Source: Ensifer sp. LC11 | GTDB lineage: Bacteria; Pseudomonadota; Alphaproteobacteria; Rhizobiales; Rhizobiaceae | Assembly: GCF_001695835.1 (NCBI RefSeq) | Contig: NZ_MBSO01000012.1 | Location: forward strand, 248,001 to 312,000 | Direction: 5' to 3' | DNA: 64,000 bases | Shown here: positions 1 through 12,653 of the stretch, piece after piece | Numbering within the stretch: the stretch's first letter is position 1 | How the letters are laid out: each line of letters opens with the position of its first letter | Made by a program: the position numbers and the translations under genes | The notes under the pieces: generated by a model | What the model was told of the DNA's origin: nothing | Seen by the model: only the letters and a program-made list of their open reading frames with translations | The model's database searches: none

Positions 1-2
1 AT

Positions 3-134
3 CTCAAGGACCGGCCGCTCTCGAAGGAGATCGAGGCGCTGCAGGATGCCTTCACTTGCCACGACCTGTTGCGATCCTTCGTCGCGACGGCGCCGATGCC
101 GGAGTTCGACGACTTCTTTGCACTCGGCAAGTGA
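3..134 (+). CDS. C-terminal end of a lyase-like protein (possible ergothionase / aromatic amino acid lyase family), truncated by window edge
   Basis: An open frame enters from the left edge and stops at 132-134, giving 43 residues. The piece DRPLSKEIEAL resembles the pattern near the C-terminus of histidine ammonia-lyase relatives (Asp-Arg-x-Leu-x-x-Asp/Glu-Ile-Glu-Ala). Ergothionase, which removes trimethylamine from ergothioneine to give thiourocanate, is known to belong to that superfamily. The four genes that follow fit the later steps of that route, so an ergothionase is the natural reading. The match rests on about a dozen residues, and an unrelated protein cannot be excluded. The next gene starts 18 bases later, so this is probably the first visible gene of the same operon. 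Confidence 0.35.
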   Translation, partial: LKDRPLSKEIEALQDAFTCHDLLRSFVATAPMPEFDDFFALGK

Positions 135-152
135 CACAACGAGGAGAGCAGC

Positions 153-1529
153 ATGTCCGATTTCGATCTCGTTCTGAAAGGCACCGTTGTTCTCCCGCAC
201 CGGATCGTCGAGGGCGGCCATGTGGCGGTTCGCGACGGCAAGGTGGTGCATGTCGGGCAGGGCGCTGCACCGGCTGCGCGTGAACGGCATGATCTCGGCA
301 ATGCGCTGATCCTGCCCGGCGCTGTCGATGCGCAGGTGCATTCGCTGTCGCAGAAAAACCAGGAGGATTTCATCTGGTCGACGCGCTCGGCGGCCGCCGG
401 CGGCGTCACCACCATCGTCGACATGCCCTATGACGAGGGCAATCTCGTCTGCTCGGCCGAGGCGCTGCGCCGCAAGATCGACCATGCGGGGCCGCAGGCG
501 CGCGTCGATTTCGCGCTCTACGGCACCGTCGATCCCGAGGAGGGGCCGGCGCGCATCGGCGAGATGGTCGAGGCCGGTGTCGCCGCCTTCAAGTTCTCCA
601 CCTTCGGCACCGATCCGAAGCGCTTTCCCCGCATTCCGGCGGCCCTTCTCGAAGACTGTTTCCGCGCGATCGCACTGAGCGGGCTTACAGCCGGCGTCCA
701 CAATGAGGACGATGAGGCGGTGCGCGCCGCGATCGACAAGGTGAAGGCCGCAGGGATCACCGACTACCGCGCCCACGGGCTGTCGCGCCCGCCGCTGACG
801 GAGCTGCTGGCCACCAACCAGATCTACGAGACGGGCGCTGCCACAGGCTGCCCGGCACATGTGGTGCACTGCTCGCTCGGGCGCGGTTACGAGATTGCTG
901 CCGCCTACCGCGCCCAAGGGCACGCCGCGACCATCGAGTGCTGCATCCACTATCTGACGCTCGACGAGGAAAACGACGTCCGCCGGCTCGGCGGCAAGGC
1001 GAAGATCAACCCGCCGATCCGGCCGCGCGCCGAGGTGGAAAAGCTCTGGCGCCATGTGGCCGACGGCACGGTAACGATGGTTTCGACCGATCATGTGAGC
1101 TGGTCGGAGGACCGCAAGACCAATCCTGATATGCTGGCCAATGCCTCGGGCGTGCCGGGGCTCGAAGTCATGGTGCCGCTCTTCGTCAAGGGCGCGCTGG
1201 AGCGCGGCATCCCATTGACGCGAGCTGCCGAACTGATGACGCTGAACCCGGCCCGGCATTTCCGCCTCGACCACCAGAAGGGCGCGCTGGAAGTCGGCAA
1301 GGATGCCGACATCATCGTCATGACGCCGGAGCCCTATGTTTATGATGCGGCCGCCAGCGGTCACAACGTTGTCGGCTGGTCGCCCTATAACGGTATCAGG
1401 CTGCCCTGGCGGGTGTCCGCTACCTATTTGCGTGGCAGGCTTGCCTTTGATGGTCGCACGGTGCTGGCTGAACCGGGTGTCGGCCAGTTCGTCCGACCGC
1501 TTCCGACCCTGGCGCTGCGGGAGGCGTGA
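153..1529 (+). CDS. Hydantoinase/dihydroorotase-family amidohydrolase, probable hydantoin-5-propionate amidohydrolase
   Basis: A 458-residue cyclic amidohydrolase that should open a hydantoin ring to an N-carbamoyl amino acid. Family landmarks are visible: the carbamylated lysine candidate K147 (AFKFST), metal histidines H183 (GVHNED) and H239 (VVHCS), and the catalytic aspartate D313 (VSTDH). The first metal motif is unusual: the family HxH reads Q61-V-H63 (DAQVHS), so its first histidine is replaced by glutamine. The ATG follows a good GAGGAG Shine-Dalgarno. Its stop overlaps the start of the carbamoyl-hydrolase gene, which implies translational coupling. Placed with DUF917 and a urocanase paralogue, it most likely converts hydantoin-5-propionate to N-carbamoyl-glutamate. 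A general dihydropyrimidinase or allantoinase role is the alternative. Confidence 0.8.
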   Translation: MSDFDLVLKGTVVLPHRIVEGGHVAVRDGKVVHVGQGAAPAARERHDLGNALILPGAVDAQVHSLSQKNQEDFIWSTRSAAAGGVTTIVDMPYDEGNLVCSAEALRRKIDHAGPQARVDFALYGTVDPEEGPARIGEMVEAGVAAFKFSTFGTDPKRFPRIPAALLEDCFRAIALSGLTAGVHNEDDEAVRAAIDKVKAAGITDYRAHGLSRPPLTELLATNQIYETGAATGCPAHVVHCSLGRGYEIAAAYRAQGHAATIECCIHYLTLDEENDVRRLGGKAKINPPIRPRAEVEKLWRHVADGTVTMVSTDHVSWSEDRKTNPDMLANASGVPGLEVMVPLFVKGALERGIPLTRAAELMTLNPARHFRLDHQKGALEVGKDADIIVMTPEPYVYDAAASGHNVVGWSPYNGIRLPWRVSATYLRGRLAFDGRTVLAEPGVGQFVRPLPTLALREA

Positions 1530-2809
1530 TGAGCAAGACCGCACACAAGGTTCCGGCCAATCTGCCCGTGAACGCCAGCCGCATCGCCGGCATCGTCAAC
1601 GGTTTGGGGGGCATTACCGAGCCCGACCGGCCTTACACGCGGCGCGCTTTCACGCCGCTCTTCCTCGAAGGGCGCGCCTTTCTCGACCGGCGCTTTCGTG
1701 CCGCAGGGCTTGAGACCCGGATCGACGCCGCCGGCAATCTGATCGGCCGTCGTAAGGGACGGAAATCGGCGCTCGGCACGATCATGCTCGGTTCCCACTC
1801 CGACACGGTGCCCGATGGCGGCCGTTTCGATGGTATCGCCGGCGTAGCGGCGGCGCTCGAAGTGGCGCGGGCGCTTTCCGACAACGGCATCGAGCTCGAC
1901 CATGATCTGGAAATCGTCGATTTCCTCGCCGAGGAAGTGTCGATCTTCGGCGTTTCCTGCGTCGGCAGCCGTGGCATGGCGGGCGTGCTGCCGGATGGCT
2001 GGCTGAACCGCACGCAGGGCGAGCTGAGTTTGCGGCAGGGCATCGTCGAAGTGGGCGGTGACCCCTCGCGGCTTTCGGGGTCGAAGCGCTCCGACATCAA
2101 GGCCTTCCTGGAACTGCACATCGAGCAGGGGCCGGTGCTGGAGACGGGGCGGCTCGACGTCGGCGTCGTCACCGCCATCGCCGGCATCACCCGCATCGAG
2201 ATCATCGTCGAGGGACAGGCCGATCACGCCGGTACGACGCCGATGGGGCATCGGCGTGATGCTCTGGTCGCAGCCTCCCGGCTGGTGTTGGAAATTGAGC
2301 GGCTGGCAACGGAATTTTCACGCGGCGACGGGCACTTCACTGCGACCGTCGGCGAGTTCTCGATCGAGCCGAACGCGGCCAATGTGGTGCCATCGCGCGT
2401 GCGGCTGCTGATTGACGCGCGCGCCGAACTGCGGCCGCAGATGGAGCGGTTTCTCGCGACGCTCGCGTCGCTTTGTCAGGGCCTCGCCGAGGCATCTGGC
2501 GTGACGATTGCGCCCGCCAATGTGCTCTCGGACAACCACCCGACGCCGGGAGATACGCTGCTGCTTTCGACGCTGGAAGAAAGCTGCGACGCTATCGGCG
2601 CCAAGCACCGGCGCATGGCGTCCGGCGCCGGCCACGACACCGCCTGGATGGGGCGCATCACCCGCTCGGCGATGGTCTTCATTCCCTGCCTCGGCGGGCG
2701 TTCGCATGCGCCCGAGGAATGGGCCGACAACGACGATATCGCGCTCGGCGCTGCCGTTCTCTTCGATGCGGTGAAGCGGCTCGACAAAAAATTGCAGGAG
2801 AAAGTGTGA
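1529..2809 (+). CDS. M20-family Zn-dependent N-carbamoyl-L-amino-acid hydrolase (likely N-carbamoyl-glutamate amidohydrolase)
   Basis: A metallo-amidohydrolase of the allantoate amidohydrolase/L-carbamoylase branch of M20, 426 residues from the ATG. A GTG one codon upstream is also possible, and both overlap the preceding TGA. Metal and catalytic motifs read clearly: H90 in GSHSDTVPDGG, D101 in RFDGIAG, E135-E136 in FLAEE, H197 in LELHIEQG, and a final His in GGRSHAPEEW. The reaction is hydrolysis of the N-carbamoyl group to the free amino acid, CO2 and ammonia. Coupled to the hydantoinase, it forms the classic two-step hydantoin-to-amino-acid module. The neighbourhood points to N-carbamoyl-L-glutamate as substrate (inference). 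Confidence 0.85.
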   Translation: MSKTAHKVPANLPVNASRIAGIVNGLGGITEPDRPYTRRAFTPLFLEGRAFLDRRFRAAGLETRIDAAGNLIGRRKGRKSALGTIMLGSHSDTVPDGGRFDGIAGVAAALEVARALSDNGIELDHDLEIVDFLAEEVSIFGVSCVGSRGMAGVLPDGWLNRTQGELSLRQGIVEVGGDPSRLSGSKRSDIKAFLELHIEQGPVLETGRLDVGVVTAIAGITRIEIIVEGQADHAGTTPMGHRRDALVAASRLVLEIERLATEFSRGDGHFTATVGEFSIEPNAANVVPSRVRLLIDARAELRPQMERFLATLASLCQGLAEASGVTIAPANVLSDNHPTPGDTLLLSTLEESCDAIGAKHRRMASGAGHDTAWMGRITRSAMVFIPCLGGRSHAPEEWADNDDIALGAAVLFDAVKRLDKKLQEKV

Positions 2810-2810
2810 G

Positions 2811-3908
2811 ATGGGCCGGATACTGAAGGAAAAGGACGTCGAGGCGGCGGTCAAGGGCGGTTCCGTCTATGCCGCCGGCGGTGGCGGCTGGGCCGATCAT
2901 GGCCGCATGCTCGGCTATGCCGCGGTCTCGATCGGCAAGCCCGAGCTGGTCTCGATCGACGAGCTCGACGCCAATGACTGGGTGGCAACTGCAGCCGCCA
3001 TCGGCGCGCCGGCCTCGACCACGCCCTGGGAGATGCGCGGCGTCGACTACGTCAAGGCCGTGCAACTGTTGCAGGAGGCGCTCGGCGAGAAGCTTTCGGG
3101 GCTGATCATTGGCCAGAACGGCAAGTCCTCGACGCTGAATGGCTGGCTGCCCTCGGCGATCCTCGGCACCAAGGTGGTGGATGCGGTCGGCGACATCCGC
3201 GCGCATCCGACCGGCGACATGGGTTCGATCGGCCTTGCCGGCTCGCCCGAGCCGATGATCCAGACGGCCGTCGGGGGCAATCGCGAGGAAAACCGCTACA
3301 TCGAGCTGGTGGTGCGCGGCGCCACCGCCAAGGTCTCGCCGGTGCTGCGCACCGCGTCGGACATGTCCGGCGGCTTCATTGCCTCCTGCCGCAATCCGGT
3401 GCGCGCATCTTACGTCAAAGCCAATGCGGCGCTTGGCGGCATCTCGCTGGCCTTGGCGCTCGGCGAGGCGATCATCGCGGCCGAAGCCAGGGGCGGCAGC
3501 GCCATCATCGACGCGATCGTCAAGACGACCAATGGCGCGATCCTTGCGGAAGGCACGATCACCGACAAATCGGTCACCTACACCAAGGAAGCCTTCGATA
3601 TCGGCACGGTGACGCTGGGGAAGGGCGCTGACTCAACGGTATTGCATGTGATGAACGAGTACATGGCGGTTGACTCTGCGGAAGGCAGAAGGCTTGCGAC
3701 TTTCCCCGACGTCATCACCACGTTGTCGCCGGAGGGCGAGCCCCTGAGCGTCGGGCAGTTGCAGGTGGGCATGCGGATCTTCGTGCTGCACGTGCCGAAG
3801 ACGGTGATCCCGCTGTCGTCCAGCGTGCTCGACCCGACTGTCTATCCATCCGTTGAAAAGGCGATGGGCATCGAGCTTGCCCGCTACGCGCTTTCGGGGC
3901 GGCAATGA
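2811..3908 (+). CDS. DUF917 family protein, probable thiohydantoin desulfurase
   Basis: A 365-residue protein with DUF917 features: a glycine-rich N-terminus (YAAGGGGWADHG), the segment DANDWVATAAAIGAPAS, and GDMGSIGLAGSP. Members of this family have been described as removing sulfur from thiohydantoins, including 3-(5-oxo-2-thioxoimidazolidin-4-yl)propionate in ergothioneine breakdown (established knowledge, from memory). The gene begins one base after the carbamoylase stop and shares its operon. Placed between a urocanase paralogue that would make the thiohydantoin and a hydantoinase that would use the product, it fits release of sulfide from the ring. DUF917 proteins with hydantoinase A/B homologues elsewhere have other assigned roles, so the exact substrate is inferred. 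Confidence 0.8.
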   Translation: MGRILKEKDVEAAVKGGSVYAAGGGGWADHGRMLGYAAVSIGKPELVSIDELDANDWVATAAAIGAPASTTPWEMRGVDYVKAVQLLQEALGEKLSGLIIGQNGKSSTLNGWLPSAILGTKVVDAVGDIRAHPTGDMGSIGLAGSPEPMIQTAVGGNREENRYIELVVRGATAKVSPVLRTASDMSGGFIASCRNPVRASYVKANAALGGISLALALGEAIIAAEARGGSAIIDAIVKTTNGAILAEGTITDKSVTYTKEAFDIGTVTLGKGADSTVLHVMNEYMAVDSAEGRRLATFPDVITTLSPEGEPLSVGQLQVGMRIFVLHVPKTVIPLSSSVLDPTVYPSVEKAMGIELARYALSGRQ

Positions 3909-3921
3909 CGGGAGCAGGACC

Positions 3922-4251
3922 ATGGCACGCGATGCAGGTCTGGAAGAGCTGATCCGGGAAGAACTCGGCGACCGGGCCGGTCTTTCGGAAAAGGCAATGT
4001 TCGGCGGCTGGGCCTATCTGCTTCACGGCAACCTGCTCCTTGGCGCGCGCGAGGGCTCGCTGCTGGTCAGGCTCGGCAAGGGCAATGACGGCTGGGCGCT
4101 TGCGCTGTCCGATATCGAGCTGATGGTGATGAACGGGCGGGCAATGCATGGCTGGGTTCGCGCCGGAGCGGATGCCTATGGCGACGACGTTTTGCGCCGG
4201 CGGCTGCTCGATGGGGCGATCGCCTTTGTCGAGACGTTGCCGCCGAAGTGA
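3922..4251 (+). CDS. TfoX/Sxy N-terminal domain protein
   Basis: A 109-residue stand-alone TfoX N-terminal domain, with the family core KAMFGGWAYLLHGNLL near residues 23-38. The ATG at 3922 follows GGAGCAGG and is preferred over the upstream in-frame codon at 3853, which lies inside DUF917. It sits 13 bases after DUF917, so it is probably co-transcribed. It has no C-terminal TfoX domain, and a competence role is unlikely to transfer from gammaproteobacteria. A second single-domain homologue with the same FGGWAYL core lies at 33889-34221. Function unknown. Confidence 0.75.
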   Translation: MARDAGLEELIREELGDRAGLSEKAMFGGWAYLLHGNLLLGAREGSLLVRLGKGNDGWALALSDIELMVMNGRAMHGWVRAGADAYGDDVLRRRLLDGAIAFVETLPPK

Positions 4252-4318
4252 GTGAGGCTGGTGGTTTGCGCCGCCGGCGCGAGTTGGTCGGCTGCCCCGC
4301 CAGTCAGTGTCGCAGTTG

Positions 4319-4510
4319 CCCCTCACCCTAACCCTCTCCCCGCAGGCGGGGAGAGGGGACGTGGCCGCTAGCGTCGGCGGAGCGTGTGGCGAGTGGCGCG
4401 GTCCACGCGTGCATCGTGGGCGGAAGCGTTGCGATTGGAATGCGGCCGATGCGGCAGGCACAACGCCATCCCCTCTCTCCGCCTGCGGGGAGAGGGCTAG
4501 GGTGAGGGGC
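4319..4510. repeat. RIME-like intergenic mosaic element
   Basis: The stretch opens with CCCCTCACCCTAACC and a CTCCCCGCAGGCGGGGAG hairpin and closes with the inverted version ending in GGTGAGGGGC. This outer inverted repeat is typical of rhizobial RIME elements. It fills most of the 372-base gap between the TfoX-like gene and the urocanase paralogue. No gene is evident in it. Confidence 0.8.
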
Positions 4511-4623
4511 TGTTCCTCCACCATATTGAATGAGGGAGGGGACCGTTACCTCCCCGCCGAGGTGAATGGAAGAGGAAGAGCGGCTTCGCACCTCCCGCGG
4601 ACACAACAACAAGGAATGAGACG

Positions 4624-6282
4624 ATGCCCAAGGCCAATCCCCGTCACCCGAACTTTCCGATCCCCGGCGGGCCGGAGTTGCGCGCCAAGGGCTGGCGGCA
4701 GGAAGCGCTGCTGCGGCTGCTCGAAAACGTGCTCTCGGTCGGCGAGGATCCGGACAACCTCGTCGTCTATGCCGCCCTCGGCAAGGCGGCGCGCAACTGG
4801 CCGGCGCATCGCGCCATCGTCAAGGCGCTCATCGGGATGGACGAGGACCAGACGCTGATCATCCAGTCCGGCAAGCCTGTGGGTTTGCTCAAGACCCATG
4901 CCAAGGCGCCGCTGGTGATCATGGCCAATTGCAACATCGTCGGCCAATGGGCCAAGGCCGAGGTGTTTTATGAGTTGCAGCGCAAGGGGCTGATCTGCTG
5001 GGGCGGGCTGACGGCCGGGGCCTGGCAATATATCGGCAGCCAGGGCGTGATCCAGGGCACCTACGAGATCTTCATGCGAATCGCCGAGCGCCGGTTCGGC
5101 GGCGATCTCTCCGGCCGCTTCGTGCTGACGGCGGGGCTTGGCGGCATGGGCGGTGCGCAGCCGCTGGCCGGCCGTATGGCGGGCGCGGCGATCCTCTGCG
5201 TCGATATCGATGCGGAACGGGCGAAGAAACGCCGCGAGATCGGCTATCTGCAGGAGATCGCGCCCGACCTTGACGCGGCGCTGGCGATGATCGACGCGGC
5301 GGTGAAGGAAAAGCGCGCGCTTTCGGTCGGCCTCGTCGGCAATGCAGCGGAGATCTATCCGGAGATCGCACGGCGCGGCATCGTGCCCGACGTTGTGACC
5401 GACCAGAGCTCGGCGCATGATCTGGTCTATGGCTACGTGCCGAAGGGCATGAGCCTTGACCAGGTGAAGGCTCTGCGGGACGAGGGCCAGGGGCAACTGA
5501 TGGCGGCAAGCCGCGCCTCGATCGTCGAGCACGTCAAGGCGATGCTCGACTTCCAGGAAAAGGGCGCGGAAGTCTTCGACAACGGCAACCTCATCCGCAC
5601 CCAGGCACGCGAGGGCGGTGTCGCCAATGCCTTCGACATTCCGATCTTTACCGAAGCCTATCTGCGCCCGCTCTTTGCCCGCGCGATCGGCCCCTTCCGC
5701 TGGATGGCCCTTTCGGGCGAGGAGAGCGACATCGCCCGGATCGACGATCTGCTCTTGGATATGTTTCCGGACAACAGGATCGTCACCAACTGGATCAGGC
5801 TCGCGCGTGAGCATATCCCCTTTGAGGGCCTGCCGGCCCGCATCGCCTGGCTCGGCCATGGCGAGCGCACGGCGCTGGCGCGGCGCGTCAATGAGCTCGT
5901 GGCCTCCGGTGAACTCAAGGGACCGATCGCGTTTTCGCGCGACCATCTCGATGCCGGTGCGATGGCGCATCCGAACATCATGACCGAGCGGATGAAGGAC
6001 GGATCGGACGCGATCGCCGATTGGCCGCTGCTCGACGCCATGCTGCTCTGCTCGTCGATGGCCGACCTCGTCGTCGTCCATTCCGGCGGCGGCGGTTACG
6101 CCGGTTACATGACAAGCTGCGGCGTGACGGTCGTTGCCGATGGCACGGTTGAGGCCGACGAACGGCTCGACCATGCGCTCACCAACGACACGTCTCTCGG
6201 CGTCATCCGTTATGCCGATGCCGGCTATGAGGAGAGCTTCGAGGAGATCGCCGCCAAGGGCATCGGGCACGTGACGGTGTGA
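4624..6282 (+). CDS. Urocanase-family hydratase, probable thiourocanate hydratase
   Basis: A 552-residue protein, full length for urocanase. It carries family blocks: LIIQSGKPVG, NCNIVGQWA, the NAD-binding stretch TAGLGGMGGAQPLA, SSAHDLVYGY, and SRDHLDAGAMAHPN. Urocanase adds water to urocanate using tightly bound NAD. This copy departs from canonical HutU at two pocket segments: PARIAWLG, where HutU (as I recall) has an essential Cys (PARICW), and VVHSGGGGYAGY in place of the HutU LHHGGGVGMG. No hutH/hutI/hutG genes adjoin it; instead it lies beside DUF917, hydantoinase and carbamoylase genes. Thiourocanate hydratase is therefore the best call. RBS: AAGGA about 10 bases upstream. Confidence 0.75.
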   Translation: MPKANPRHPNFPIPGGPELRAKGWRQEALLRLLENVLSVGEDPDNLVVYAALGKAARNWPAHRAIVKALIGMDEDQTLIIQSGKPVGLLKTHAKAPLVIMANCNIVGQWAKAEVFYELQRKGLICWGGLTAGAWQYIGSQGVIQGTYEIFMRIAERRFGGDLSGRFVLTAGLGGMGGAQPLAGRMAGAAILCVDIDAERAKKRREIGYLQEIAPDLDAALAMIDAAVKEKRALSVGLVGNAAEIYPEIARRGIVPDVVTDQSSAHDLVYGYVPKGMSLDQVKALRDEGQGQLMAASRASIVEHVKAMLDFQEKGAEVFDNGNLIRTQAREGGVANAFDIPIFTEAYLRPLFARAIGPFRWMALSGEESDIARIDDLLLDMFPDNRIVTNWIRLAREHIPFEGLPARIAWLGHGERTALARRVNELVASGELKGPIAFSRDHLDAGAMAHPNIMTERMKDGSDAIADWPLLDAMLLCSSMADLVVVHSGGGGYAGYMTSCGVTVVADGTVEADERLDHALTNDTSLGVIRYADAGYEESFEEIAAKGIGHVTV

Positions 6283-7575: not shown

Positions 7576-8337
7576 TCACACCACCGTCTCGCCGCCATCG
7601 ACCACCAGGATCTGGCCGGTCATATAGGAGGAGCGATCGGAGACGAGGAACAGGATCGACTCGGCAATCTCCTCGACGCTTGCCCAGCGGCCGAGTGGCA
7701 CCTTTTCGCGGATATAGGATTCAATCGCGCCGCGGCCGCCCATTTGCGCGATGAAGGGGTCGTTGAAGGGGGTGTCGACCCAGCCGGGGCAGAGCGCGTT
7801 GACGCGGATGCCATGGCGCGCGTAGTCGCCGGCCATCTGCTTGGTCATGGCGATGACGGCGTGTTTGGTCGTCGTATAGGCGATCATCTCGCGGTCGTAG
7901 AGCACGCCCGACGAGGAGGAGGTGTTGACGATGACGCCGCGGCCGGCGGCGCGCATCGATGGCATGACAAGGCGTGCGGCCATGAAATGGGCGCGGACAT
8001 TGAGGTTCCAGGAGCGGTCGAAGCCTGAAATCTCGACCTCTTCCAGATCACCCGCCACCTGAGCGCCGGCATGGTTGTGCAGGATATCGATACGCCCATG
8101 ACGATAGAGGATATTGGCGATGCCGTCGGAAAGGGCTGCGTCGTCGGTGACGTCGATCGCCAGCGCCTCGGCGCGGCCACCCTTGGCAGCGATCGCCTCG
8201 ACGGCGGCGCTGGCTGCCGCAAGGCTGCGGTCGACGACGACGACATGAGCGCCCTCGCGCGCCATGATGGCCGCCCCCGCCTGACCGATCCCGGAGCCCG
8301 CTCCGGTCACGATCGCGACCCGGTCTTTCAGGATCAT
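7576..8337 (-). CDS. Short-chain dehydrogenase/reductase (SDR)
   Basis: A 253-residue classical SDR with the NAD(P) motif TGAGSGIG (residues 11-18), a D at the end of the second beta strand (VVVVDRS) favouring NAD, an NHAG version of the NNAG motif, the catalytic serines NTSSSSG, and Y-T-T-T-K of the YxxxK pair. It is the last gene of the minus-strand ABC operon, starting 4 bases after the second permease stop. It probably oxidises or reduces the transported compound or a derivative. Substrate unknown. Confidence 0.85.
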   Translation of the reverse strand: MILKDRVAIVTGAGSGIGQAGAAIMAREGAHVVVVDRSLAAASAAVEAIAAKGGRAEALAIDVTDDAALSDGIANILYRHGRIDILHNHAGAQVAGDLEEVEISGFDRSWNLNVRAHFMAARLVMPSMRAAGRGVIVNTSSSSGVLYDREMIAYTTTKHAVIAMTKQMAGDYARHGIRVNALCPGWVDTPFNDPFIAQMGGRGAIESYIREKVPLGRWASVEEIAESILFLVSDRSSYMTGQILVVDGGETVV

Positions 8338-8341
8338 GGTT

Positions 8342-9160
8342 TCACTCCCCGGATTTTGTTTTCTTTTCCCGCATCAGGATGCGGGCGGTCAGGATCAGAA
8401 GCAGCGAAGCGACGAGTACCAGCGTCGCGATCGCGTTGATCTCGGGCGTCACGCCGCGGCGGATCGAGGCAAAGACGTAGATCGGCAGCGTCGTCTTCGA
8501 GCCCGCGACGAAGAAGGCGATGATGAAATCGTCGAAGGAGAAGGTGAAGGCGAGGAGAAAGCCGGCGAGGATCGAGGGCAGGATCTGCGGCAGCACGATC
8601 AGCCGGAAGGTGGTGAGCGGCGTCGCGTAAAGGTCACTCGACGCCTCGACGATGTCGCGACCGAGGCTGGCAATGCGCGCCTTCACGATCATCGTCACCA
8701 GCGCCATCGAGAACAGGCCGTGGGCGGCGATGATCGAGCCATAGCCGAGACCGAGTTGCGGCGGCTGCTCGCCCGGCCAGATGGAGGCCAGCGCCGGATT
8801 GACGAAGGAGAAGACGGCGACGAGCGCCACAAGGGTCGCGATGCCGATGACGACGCCGGGAACGACGATGGCGGCGGCAAAGAGCGCGTCGAAGATCGCC
8901 CGGTTGCGTGGCGCCAGCCGCTCCATGCCGAGTGCTGCCATGGTGCCGAAGATCGCGGCGAGCGTGGCGCTGGTAAAGGCGATCATCAGGCTGTTCTGGA
9001 GGGCAGAGACCAGGAAGGTGTTTCCCAGCGCCTTGCCGTACCAGGCGGTCGAAAAGCCGGTGAACTCGCTCGCATTGCGCCCCGCATTGAAGGAGAACAG
9101 CACGACGAGCGCGATCGGCGCGTAGAGGAAGAGATAGACGGAAGAAATGAAGGCGCGCAT
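8342..9160 (-). CDS. ABC transporter permease, PotC-like
   Basis: A 272-residue inner-membrane permease with about six hydrophobic segments and the EAA cytoplasmic loop (EASSDLYATPLTTFRLIVLP) that docks on the ATPase. By sequence style it belongs to the spermidine/putrescine (Opp/PotC) group. It overlaps the upstream permease by one base, which indicates coupled translation and a heterodimeric channel. Confidence 0.85.
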   Translation of the reverse strand: MRAFISSVYLFLYAPIALVVLFSFNAGRNASEFTGFSTAWYGKALGNTFLVSALQNSLMIAFTSATLAAIFGTMAALGMERLAPRNRAIFDALFAAAIVVPGVVIGIATLVALVAVFSFVNPALASIWPGEQPPQLGLGYGSIIAAHGLFSMALVTMIVKARIASLGRDIVEASSDLYATPLTTFRLIVLPQILPSILAGFLLAFTFSFDDFIIAFFVAGSKTTLPIYVFASIRRGVTPEINAIATLVLVASLLLILTARILMREKKTKSGE

Positions 9161-10026
9161 CAGACGAGATCCACCTGTCTTGTGCCGGCAACGCGGAAGG
9201 CAATGCGCATCGCCACCATCAGGATCACCACGACGACGGCCACCAGTGTGACGGCGATCGCCGAGCCGAAGGGCCAGTTGCGCGATTGCAGGAAGAGATC
9301 GACCAGCGCGTTGCCGATGAAGAACACCTTGCCGCCGCCAAGCAACTGCGGGATCAGATATTCGCCGAGCAGCAGGATCGTCACCAGCGCGACGCCGGTC
9401 ATCACGCCCGGCAGCGACAAGGGCAGGGTGACACCGAAGAAGGTGGAGACCGGTTTGGCGCCGAGATCGGCTGAGGCTTCAAGCAGGCGGCGATCGAGTT
9501 TTTCGAGGCTCACATAGATCGGCATGATCATCAGCGGCAGGTAGCCATAGACGATGCCGAGCAGGACGGCGCCCGGCGTGTTCAGCATCCTGACGTCCTC
9601 GATGCCGATCATCGACAAAAGGTTGGGGATGCCGCGCGAGCCGAGAATGTACATCCAGGCATAGGTGCGCACGAGCAGGCTGGTCCAGAAGGGCACGACG
9701 ACGAGCGACACCAGGATCAGCCGGTAGCGCGGGTTCGCCTTGACCGCGAGATAATAGGCGACCGGATAGGCGATCAGCAGGCAGGCAAGGGCGCCGACCG
9801 GCGCGAGAACGAGCGTGTTCCAGAAGGCCGCCGCCCGCGTCGGCAGGTTGGCGAATTGCGCAAAGGTGAAGGCCGCCTGGTAGCCGCCTTCCGGTGCGCG
9901 TTCGCCGAAGGCGAAGACCAGCATGGCGATGAAGGGCAGCACGAGGAAGATCATCAGCCATGCCGCCGCCGGCGCCACCAGCGCTGCCGTCACCAGGTTT
10001 CTCTTCGTGTTCGTTGCCGCGGTCAT
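9160..10026 (-). CDS. ABC transporter permease, PotB-like
   Basis: A 288-residue permease with an N-terminal membrane anchor (residues about 10-40) and a typical PotB segment, PFWTSLLVRTYAWMYILG. The EAA loop is EASADLGAKPVSTFFGVTLP. It should pair with the PotC-like protein encoded immediately downstream. A RIME element of about 160 bp separates it from the binding-protein gene. Confidence 0.85.
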   Translation of the reverse strand: MTAATNTKRNLVTAALVAPAAAWLMIFLVLPFIAMLVFAFGERAPEGGYQAAFTFAQFANLPTRAAAFWNTLVLAPVGALACLLIAYPVAYYLAVKANPRYRLILVSLVVVPFWTSLLVRTYAWMYILGSRGIPNLLSMIGIEDVRMLNTPGAVLLGIVYGYLPLMIMPIYVSLEKLDRRLLEASADLGAKPVSTFFGVTLPLSLPGVMTGVALVTILLLGEYLIPQLLGGGKVFFIGNALVDLFLQSRNWPFGSAIAVTLVAVVVVILMVAMRIAFRVAGTRQVDLV

Positions 10027-10084
10027 AAAATGGATCCGTTGAGTTTCAGTAGCATTCGGCCCGCATTGGCCGGGTGGGGGATTG

Positions 10085-10247
10085 CCCCCTCATCCGGCCT
10101 GCCGGCCACCTTCTCCCCGCAGGCGGGGCGAAGGGGACTCGTGGCGCCCGCTCGTTCCCACACATGCGAGGGTCGGAGCGGGAGGTTGCCGCTTGTCCCT
10201 TCTCCCCGTCAGAACGGGGAGAAGGTGCCGGCAGGCGGATGAGGGGC
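10085..10247. repeat. RIME-like intergenic mosaic element
   Basis: Runs from CCCCTCATCCGGCCTGCCGG through two CTCCCC/GGGGAG hairpins to the inverse GGCGGATGAGGGGC. It sits between the binding-protein and permease genes of the PotABCD-like operon, where its stem-loops may influence relative expression. No coding sequence is evident in it. Confidence 0.8.
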
Positions 10248-10294
10248 AATCCCTCACCGCGCGGATGAGGGGCATTTTCCTCTCAGAGCTTCGC

Positions 10295-11455
10295 TCAAGC
10301 CGACTTGAAGCGCGCCATCAGCTCGGCGCGGCCGGGGTCGGTCAGCGTCACGGCGGCGCCGAATTCGAGCGGCGTCAGCGATGCCTCGTCCGGATAGACG
10401 ATCTTGTTGCCGGTGACGTCGGCCGGCAGCAGCTTCATGACGCGGCTGTCGGTCGTCGGTGCGCCGTTGGCGATGTGCTCCTTCATGGCGTTTTCCGGCG
10501 CCATCAGATAGTTGAGCAGCGCATAGCCGGCAGCCTTGTTGGCGGCACTCTTCGGGATCGCGTAGAAATCCGACCAGATCTCGCCGCCGTCCTTGCCGAG
10601 CACGAACTGGATCTCCGGCATGTCGCGGTTGAGCTGGGCGCCGTCATTGGTCCAGCACATGGTCATCCAGGCATCGGTCGCGCGCATCGACGGCTGGTAG
10701 TCGCTGTTGATGGCGTAGAGATGCGGCTTCACCTTGATTAGGAGTTCCTCGGCCTTGGCGAGTTCGTCCGGCTTGATCGAGTTGAAGGAGTAGCCGAGCG
10801 AGACCAGCGCGTTGCCGATGGTGGTGAGCTGATAGTCGTGGACCATGGCGCGGCCGTCGGCTTCGGTCATGGCGATCTCGAAGAAGTCCTTCCAGCTCGT
10901 CACCGGCGTCTTGATCTTCCCCGAGTTGAGCGCGATGCCGGTCGTGCCCCAGTTCTTCGGCACGGCATAGGTCTTGCCGTCGACGACGCCTTCGTTGGTG
11001 AAACGCGCGGTTTCGGTGGAGGCGTCGTAGTTCGGAAGCTTCGAAAGATCGAGCTCGTCGATCAGGCCGAGCTTCACATAGGTCGAGATCGTGTAGTTGG
11101 TGGGAACGAAGAGGTCCCAGCCGGTGCCGCCGGCCTGGAGCTTGGCGAGCATCTCCTCGTTCGAACCGAAGACATTGACCTCGACGGCGACGCCGGTTGC
11201 CGCCTGGAAGGCCTCGAAGGTCGCCGGGTCATGGTAGTTCGGCCAGGTGGCGATCGACATCTGCGTGCCGAGATCGCCGGCAAAGGCGGTGGAATTGAAG
11301 AGGCCCGGCTGGCGCGCGAGCACGGCGGTCGCAAGTCCGAGGCCGGTAACGCCGAGGAAGTGGCGGCGGGTGACCGAGCCGCGCTTCAGGCGCATCAGTT
11401 CGTCGCCAAGCTGATCGGCAGTGATAGGGGCATTTTCTCTGTACCATTTGCTCAT
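10295..11455 (-). CDS. Periplasmic substrate-binding protein, PotD-like, Tat-exported
   Basis: A 386-residue binding protein. The ATG at 11455 follows AAGGGAA; the longer reading frame to 11659 runs back into the ATPase gene. The N-terminus has a twin-arginine signal, SVTRRHFLGVTGLGLATAVLA, so it is probably exported folded by the Tat pathway. The mature part (LGTQMSIATWPNYHDPATFEAF onward) follows the spermidine/putrescine-binding fold. Linkage to the neighbouring thiohydantoin-degrading genes makes ergothioneine or a related betaine a candidate ligand, but nothing in the sequence proves it. Confidence 0.85.
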   Translation of the reverse strand: MSKWYRENAPITADQLGDELMRLKRGSVTRRHFLGVTGLGLATAVLARQPGLFNSTAFAGDLGTQMSIATWPNYHDPATFEAFQAATGVAVEVNVFGSNEEMLAKLQAGGTGWDLFVPTNYTISTYVKLGLIDELDLSKLPNYDASTETARFTNEGVVDGKTYAVPKNWGTTGIALNSGKIKTPVTSWKDFFEIAMTEADGRAMVHDYQLTTIGNALVSLGYSFNSIKPDELAKAEELLIKVKPHLYAINSDYQPSMRATDAWMTMCWTNDGAQLNRDMPEIQFVLGKDGGEIWSDFYAIPKSAANKAAGYALLNYLMAPENAMKEHIANGAPTTDSRVMKLLPADVTGNKIVYPDEASLTPLEFGAAVTLTDPGRAELMARFKSA

Positions 11456-11525
11456 GACGCTGTTCCCTTTATCGTTTGACGTACATGCGTAGGCGGCAGA
11501 ACCGGCCCGGTGAGGCCGGGAGAAT

Positions 11526-12653
11526 TCAGGCCGGAAAGACGTGCAGCGCGTTCGGATCGAAGGCGAGGCCGACCTTTTCGCCGGGCTCCACCAGTTCGCT
11601 GTCGCCGAGCGTGCGGCGGTCGGCCGTGACCAGGAAGTCGCCGAGGCCATCGACTGCAACCGAGTATTCGACGGCTGACCCTAGGAAGATCCGGTGGGTG
11701 ACGGTGCCGGCAAGCGCGTCCGCACTCGCAGCGCCGTTGCGCGTCAATCGGATCGCCTCGGGCCGGAGTGCCACCGTTGCCGCACCTTTTGCGCCGTTGA
11801 TTGCGGGGGCGGCGAAGCGCGCGCCATTGGCAAGGACGAGCGACGAGGCGCCGTCGACGGTGGCATTGATGCGGTTGGTCTTGCCGACGAAATCGGCGAC
11901 GAAGAGGCTCGCCGGCCGGTCGTAGATTTCCTCGGGCGGGCCGACCTGGACGATGCGGCCGGCGTTCATGACGCAGACGAAATCGCTCATCGACAGCGCT
12001 TCTTCCTGATCGTGGGTGACGAGCACGAATGTGATGCCGAGCTCGCGTTGCAGCGTCTGCAGCTCGATCTGCATGGCGGTGCGCAGCTTCTTGTCGAGGG
12101 CGGCGAGCGGCTCGTCGAGCAGAAGCACCTTCGGCTTGTTGACGATGGCGCGGGCAAGCGCCACGCGCTGCTGCTGGCCGCCGGACATTTCGTGGATGCG
12201 GCGTTTGCCGAAGCCGCCGAGCCGCACCATTTCCAGCGCCTCCTGGGCGCGGCGGGAAATCTCGGCGCCGGCGATGCGCGGCCGCATCTGCCTCAAGCCG
12301 TAGGAGACGTTGGCTTCGACGTCGAGATGGGGAAACAGCGCGTAGTGCTGGAACACCATGTTGACCGGGCGGCGATAGGCCGCCACGCCGTTCATCGGCT
12401 CGCCGCTGATGAACACCGTGCCCTCGCATGGCTGCTCGAAGCCGCCGATCATGCGCAGACACGTGGTCTTGCCACAGCCGGAAGGCCCCAGCAGCGCCAT
12501 GAAGGCGCCGCGCGGCACCTCAAGATTGATGTCCGATACAGCCGTCACGGCGCCATAGCGTTTGGCGACCGAACGGAATTCGATGTCGTTCGTCGAAGCG
12601 GATGTCACGTCTGTTCCCTGCGGTTGTTTTCGGATGTCGCCATGATCTCCCAT
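11526..12653 (-). CDS. ABC transporter ATP-binding protein, PotA-like
   Basis: A 375-residue ATPase with all motifs intact: Walker A GPSGCGKTT, Q-loop MVFQHYALFPHL, signature MSGGQQQRVALARA, Walker B VLLLDEPLAALD and switch His VTHDQEEA. A TOBE domain fills the C-terminus. It is the promoter-proximal gene of the minus-strand operon. The ATG at 12653 has GGTGGAG upstream. An internal GTG at 12608 with AGGGAA is a credible alternative that would remove 15 residues. Confidence 0.9.
   Translation of the reverse strand: MGDHGDIRKQPQGTDVTSASTNDIEFRSVAKRYGAVTAVSDINLEVPRGAFMALLGPSGCGKTTCLRMIGGFEQPCEGTVFISGEPMNGVAAYRRPVNMVFQHYALFPHLDVEANVSYGLRQMRPRIAGAEISRRAQEALEMVRLGGFGKRRIHEMSGGQQQRVALARAIVNKPKVLLLDEPLAALDKKLRTAMQIELQTLQRELGITFVLVTHDQEEALSMSDFVCVMNAGRIVQVGPPEEIYDRPASLFVADFVGKTNRINATVDGASSLVLANGARFAAPAINGAKGAATVALRPEAIRLTRNGAASADALAGTVTHRIFLGSAVEYSVAVDGLGDFLVTADRRTLGDSELVEPGEKVGLAFDPNALHVFPA

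Follow-up and report, generated by a model that had tools for sequence, protein, structure and literature searches.

Ergothioneine is a sulfur compound made by soil fungi and actinobacteria, and an Ert pathway that converts thiourocanate to glutamate has reportedly been described in Burkholderia sp. HME13. A 2026 survey considers ergothionase to be restricted to few genera and notes that BLAST returns only ammonia-lyases (PMC13405746); the HME13 ergothionase is cited in that survey, whose reference list includes the reconstitution of an ergothioneine sulfonate pathway of Agrobacterium radiobacter. An ergothionase has also been reviewed in A. radiobacter, its product being further degraded to glutamate in other bacteria (PMC7653990). 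Equivalog models exist in NCBIfam (release 20 was used here) for ErtB, ErtC, ErtD, and ErtE. This article describes an ert operon at the left edge of a 64,000-nucleotide stretch of DNA from Ensifer sp. LC11 (hereafter the window; contig C12:248001-312000 of a 6.2 Mb genome in 73 contigs), which, as read from homology and synteny, very probably encodes the complete pathway from ergothioneine to glutamate.

Composition of the ert operon

An earlier note on this DNA had claimed a near-complete ergothioneine degradation cluster, consisting of a urocanase paralogue, a DUF917 protein, a hydantoinase, and an N-carbamoyl-amino-acid hydrolase on one strand, with a possible lyase tail upstream. All four genes were found where they had been placed, the domain of ErtC now being represented by Pfam S-Me-THD_N/_C, and the tail (window 3-134) proved to be the last part of an intact gene for a Lyase_aromatic protein of 512 amino acids. 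The check that the note had proposed, inspection of the sequence left of the window, revealed the full-length ergothionase-like gene ertA (L003:14596-16134, i.e., contig C12:246596-248134 or window -1404 to 134). The cluster therefore stands but the word "near" does not, as ErtA, lying off the left edge, makes the five-enzyme set complete; the degradation of ergothioneine to glutamate that had been suggested is supported and was, if anything, understated. The features of the operon within the window, with predicted products, are as follows.

1..134, + strand: ErtA, ergothionase-like trimethylamine lyase, 3' end only in the window (Lyase_aromatic; 6S7J match)
153..1529, + strand: ErtD, hydantoin-5-propionate amidohydrolase, 458 amino acids (NF058538)
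1526..2809, + strand: ErtE, N-carbamyl-L-glutamate amidohydrolase, 427 amino acids (NF058540)
2811..3908, + strand: ErtC, thiohydantoin desulfurase (DUF917/S-Me-THD-like), 365 amino acids (NF058529)
3922..4251, + strand: TfoX-like small protein inside the operon, 109 amino acids (TfoX_N, marginal)
4318..4510, no strand: intergenic repeat between the TfoX-like gene and ErtB (inverted arms and nested hairpin)
4624..6282, + strand: ErtB, thiourocanate hydratase and HutU paralogue, 552 amino acids (NF058530)

The genes ertA-ertD-ertE-ertC-(tfoX-like)-ertB form one operon that covers all five pathway steps. A 372-bp gap separates the TfoX-like gene from ErtB, while the other ert genes of the window are tightly packed, with 18 bp between the end of ErtA and the start of ErtD, a 4-bp overlap of ErtD and ErtE, and 1 bp between ErtE and ErtC. 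The order of the proposed steps is dictated by the named enzyme families. ErtA would split ergothioneine into thiourocanate and trimethylamine, and ErtB would hydrate thiourocanate to thiohydantoin propionate, in which ErtC would exchange sulfur for oxygen, yielding hydantoin-5-propionate and sulfide. Ring opening by ErtD would then give N-carbamoyl-glutamate, from which ErtE would release glutamate, ammonia, and CO2. Uptake may occur through a betaine-type ATP-binding cassette (ABC) transporter, and control may be exerted by a divergent LysR with tandem helix-turn-helix (HTH) domains acting at a conserved TGGGATAT box.

Assignment of the five enzymes

To judge from its sequence and predicted model, ErtA is probably an ergothionase-like lyase. 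It scores 262 bits against Lyase_aromatic, and its best sequence match in the PDB is the Treponema denticola ergothionase 6S7J (189 bits), the best histidine ammonia-lyase (HAL) reaching 141 bits; the model (predicted local distance difference test, pLDDT, 87) has 6S7J as each of its three top structural matches, with template-modelling (TM) scores of 0.87-0.89. The Ala-Ser-Gly tripeptide of the 4-methylideneimidazole-5-one (MIO) group is absent from ErtA (GSMGCADIG), the host HutH having GASGD, and is likewise missing in the Treponema enzyme and in 18/18 ErtA sequences compared. Fourteen alignment columns are common to these 18 sequences and the T. denticola ergothionase but not to three HAL-type lyases, and Tyr58, Lys68-Asp69, Lys381, and Glu411 of ErtA align with residues of the Treponema enzyme (alignment only). 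The lyase tree has long branches and was used for its unrooted split only. A second member of the histidine ammonia-lyase family in this genome (L198:8689-10275, contig C10) adjoins a HutD-like gene; it has GSVGYLTHAA at the position of HutH's MIO tripeptide, and a missing Ala-Ser-Gly is thus not unique to ErtA.

The remaining four enzymes exceed the cut-offs of their equivalog models: ErtB reaches 1056 bits against the thiourocanate hydratase model NF058530 (cut-off 930), ErtC 605.3 against the thiohydantoin desulfurase model NF058529 (440), ErtD 800.7 against NF058538 (600), and ErtE 603.8 against NF058540 (520), a general Zn-hydrolase model scoring higher for ErtE, at 690. The corresponding S-methyl models give 741 for ErtB (NF058531, cut-off 880) and 287 for ErtC (NF058532, cut-off 450), and an S-methyl variant pathway was rejected on these scores. 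In an alignment of 29 ErtB and 13 HutU rows, 43 columns are fixed differently in all members of the two groups, among them the Cys of HutU that is Ala 408 in ErtB, and the split is fully supported, ErtB forming a separate clade. The PDB enzyme 7NED, which we take to be an S-methyl thiourocanate hydratase, is 66% identical to ErtB and agrees with it at nearly all 43 diagnostic columns. By family, ErtB would be a thiourocanate hydratase with a putative preference for thiourocanate over urocanate.

Several observations weigh against ergothioneine as the compound degraded by this operon. Identity between ErtA and the characterised Treponema enzyme is about 28-30%, and against the NCBIfam histidine-lyase models ErtA scores at most 209 bits where cut-offs exceed 520, so that no model cut-off is reached; for this gene the earlier expectation that automatic annotation would mislabel the cluster holds, while for ErtB, ErtC, ErtD, and ErtE the existing equivalog models contradict it. 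No transporter is present inside the ert operon of this genome. Finally, the sulfonate pathway listed among the references of PMC13405746 was reconstituted from A. radiobacter, which also belongs to the Rhizobiaceae, and it shows that oxidised ergothioneine may serve a rhizobial relative. It is conceivable, if unlikely, that the physiological substrate is a compound related to ergothioneine by oxidation or methylation (the sulfonate or S-methyl-ergothioneine) and that ergothioneine itself is secondary. The T. denticola ergothionase is said to act on the sulfonic acid as well, which counts for this alternative, as do the diagnostic residues that ErtB mostly has in common with 7NED. On the other side, both ErtB and ErtC far exceed the thio models and miss the S-methyl cut-offs, and a sulfonate route would be expected to yield sulfite and to need no thiohydantoin desulfurase.

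The same genome carries a canonical hutI, hutH, hutG, and hutU (hutIHGU) operon on contig C35. Identity to the products of that operon is 49% for ErtB with HutU and 26% for ErtA with HutH, and the ert cluster contains neither a MIO-type HutH nor a HutU-type urocanase. The location of hutIHGU on another contig argues that the urocanase paralogue ErtB is not the histidine enzyme, and a duplication of hut was rejected on this ground. The alternative of an ordinary cluster for histidine utilisation or hydantoins (pyrimidines) that arose by duplication and has no tie to ergothioneine is disfavoured and highly improbable: ErtB also passes the general hutU cut-off (692 bits vs 375), and ErtD and ErtE fall within the broad hydantoinase and carbamoylase families, but the specific models score far higher, the lyase lacks MIO, a complete hut operon exists elsewhere, and a thiohydantoin desulfurase would be superfluous for urocanate breakdown. 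EgtD was not found in the genome, which leaves the cell without that route of ergothioneine synthesis, so that the compound would need to be imported; recycling of self-made ergothioneine was rejected on the same finding. A search for trimethylamine-degrading enzymes returned no convincing Tmm of the flavin-containing monooxygenase type (one weak 32-bit match) and no DUF1989-type Tdm, Tmd or MttB-type routes being outside the search; trimethylamine is therefore probably lost as waste.

Distribution, control, and surroundings of the operon

The host is a member of the Ensifer adhaerens group, a rhizobium of soil and roots, in agreement with the rhizobial origin proposed earlier: the closest ErtA sequences are those of Ensifer sp. 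Root278 (98%) and E. adhaerens strains (96%). The ert operon is no rare find, occurring in the whole sampled genus and in dozens of other rhizobia. ErtB above the thiourocanate hydratase cut-off is present in 16/16 sampled species of the genus and in 29/397 genomes sampled from the order; a phylum sample that leans on near kin gave 6/398. Synteny was counted in 80 named rhizobial ErtA loci, where ErtA is accompanied by ErtC in 79, by ErtD and ErtE in 78 each, and by ErtB in 77, and gene order is kept in about 78/80, a recurrence far beyond chance. A search of the open-access literature, most subscription journals lying outside it, turned up nothing on ert in Ensifer or Sinorhizobium, and a prior report may exist.

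Three relatives (L043, L046, L058) carry ErtC and ErtB, and L058 also ErtD, with no ErtA nearby, the neighbours being a LysR gene and an ABC transporter of the amino-acid type; these are possible thiourocanate salvage clusters. Were the present operon likewise devoted to the salvage of thiourocanate or free thiohydantoins from other organisms, ErtA would be vestigial or of other specificity. Such clusters, and the faster divergence of ErtA than of ErtB (54% vs 90% identity to Rhizobium), speak for that interpretation; the fact that ErtA heads the cluster in the 80 named loci, the conservation of its key columns, and the location of the box and of the operon's start at ertA in this genome speak against it, and we regard it as very improbable. 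In other loci, a gene for a 56-kDa selenium-binding protein (SBP56 family) adjoins ErtB (L047:5497-7311; named loci L133, L139, L140, and L141) and may have a part in the handling of sulfur or selenium.

A conserved box, TTTGGGATATA, lies at L003:14452-14462 on contig C12, ending upstream of ertA at a distance of 144 bp from its start. The motif TGGGATAT occurs upstream of ErtA in 76/80 loci, whereas the remaining 1.49 Mb contain it 11 times, and in Rhizobium and other families the box takes the form of the palindrome TGGGATATCCCA preceded by GTTC. The extended pattern GTTCN4TTTGGGATAT has a single occurrence in this genome, before ertA, and lies 6-8 kb before ertB, i.e., at ertA, in 16/16 genus genomes within one mismatch; the reversed control pattern gave 2 matches across the 16 genomes. 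Extra exact matches in two genomes lie inside a permease gene where they encode FTIWDI and are hence chance, and a box regulon was rejected. Outside the ertA promoter, the box is essentially absent. The candidate regulator beside it is the following gene.

L003:13208-14386, - strand: LysR-type gene, divergent from ErtA and 209 bp away (two HTH_1)

Its two tandem HTH_1 domains recur in the ert-linked LysR of other families (L083, L043). As Rhizobium has the box without an adjacent LysR, the pairing of LysR and box is a putative one.

The TfoX-like protein matches TfoX_N at 29.9 bits, a marginal value just under the Pfam gathering cut-off of 30.1, and its model (pLDDT 90) weakly resembles VP1028, YjbR, and YdhG (E 0.006-0.02). 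The gene lies between ErtC and ErtB in 54/80 named loci (Ensifer, Pararhizobium, Rhizobium); its absence from most Shinella and from Martelella marks it as accessory. Downstream of it, the 193-bp repeat has 42-nt inverted arms, 95% complementary, with a nested hairpin (z = -11), and presumably resembles rhizobial intergenic mosaic elements. Comparable elements occupy the same gap in the loci of about 19 other species, and the spot before ertB seems to be a favoured place for them.

A carnitine-type cluster (L003:5714-12869) lies directly upstream of ert and comprises a coenzyme A (CoA) ligase, an acyl-CoA dehydrogenase, carnitine 3-dehydrogenase, BKACE, and a GbdR-like regulator, the last two being found beside ert in 53/53 loci of the Ensifer-Pararhizobium-Shinella clade. 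Downstream, two syntenic neighbours follow, the first a short-chain dehydrogenase/reductase (SDR).

7576-8337, - strand: SDR dehydrogenase, syntenic neighbour in Ensifer (general SDR grouping only)
8342-12653, - strand: PotBCDA-type ABC transporter, syntenic neighbour in Ensifer (general polyamine-transporter, potA subfamily, grouping only)

This region (7576..12653) is next to ert in Ensifer and mostly not in Rhizobium and Shinella. Membership of the SDR and Pot-type genes in the pathway is not supported, and the Pot-type transporter was not adopted as importer, its conservation beside ert being mainly confined to Ensifer. A betaine ABC transporter of the OsmF type is located between ErtA and ErtD in Martelella and other families, and the present genome has an unlinked OsmF on C35, 75% identical, near a GcvT-fused flavin adenine dinucleotide (FAD) oxidoreductase. 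OsmF was present in 25/29 ert-positive vs 60/368 ert-negative genomes of the order sample, but phylogeny confounds this comparison, and the transporter also occurs in genera of the family that lack ert; OsmF was accordingly not accepted as an established importer. The unlinked OsmF-type system is the best importer candidate, with putative specificity for ergothioneine.

These parts can be tentatively combined, with somewhat less than even confidence, into a set of undescribed dedicated components: a tandem-HTH LysR reading the TGGGATAT/TGGGATATCCCA box, a TfoX/YdhG-like pathway protein (serving, for example, ErtC sulfide or metal handling), and an Ensifer-Shinella-Pararhizobium island in which ert is joined with carnitine degradation for trimethylammonium betaines.

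Comparison with described systems

The pathway itself is already known and modelled by NCBI, and it is the host group that seems little described. The ert operon is widespread among rhizobia yet easily misnamed: an intact ergothionase-type lyase and the whole downstream pathway are present in nearly all 80 rhizobial loci, hidden under histidine-lyase names. Ergothioneine can thus be tested as a source of nitrogen and sulfur in legume-associated bacteria, and a clean promoter element is at hand for such tests, together with candidates for the regulator and the importer; the least explained parts are the regulatory box, the tandem-HTH LysR, and the TfoX-like gene.

Measured against the Ert pathway of NCBIfam (NF058529, NF058530, NF058538, and NF058540), the four modelled enzymes agree and an ergothionase-like lyase comes first in the operon, whereas the rhizobial host, the TfoX-like gene and repeat within the operon, the lack of a linked transporter, and an ErtA without a model set this locus apart. 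The ergothioneine importers EgtU/EgtV (PMC9732360) belong to the same OpuAC superfamily as the OsmF-type system embedded in ert of other families, but the system here is of the OsmF/YehZ type and, in this genome, unlinked to ert. HutH and HutU of the canonical hut operon (C35) are paralogues of ErtA and ErtB, HutH with and ErtA without the Ala-Ser-Gly of MIO. Among S-methyl enzymes, 7NED groups with ErtB against HutU, although ErtB and ErtC miss the cut-offs of NF058531 and NF058532. The T. denticola ergothionase (PDB 6S7J/6S7Q) comes from a phylum other than that of the ErtA host and is about 28-30% identical to ErtA, but like ErtA it has no MIO, and the columns that the two share include D193, S199, N201, H342, and K381.

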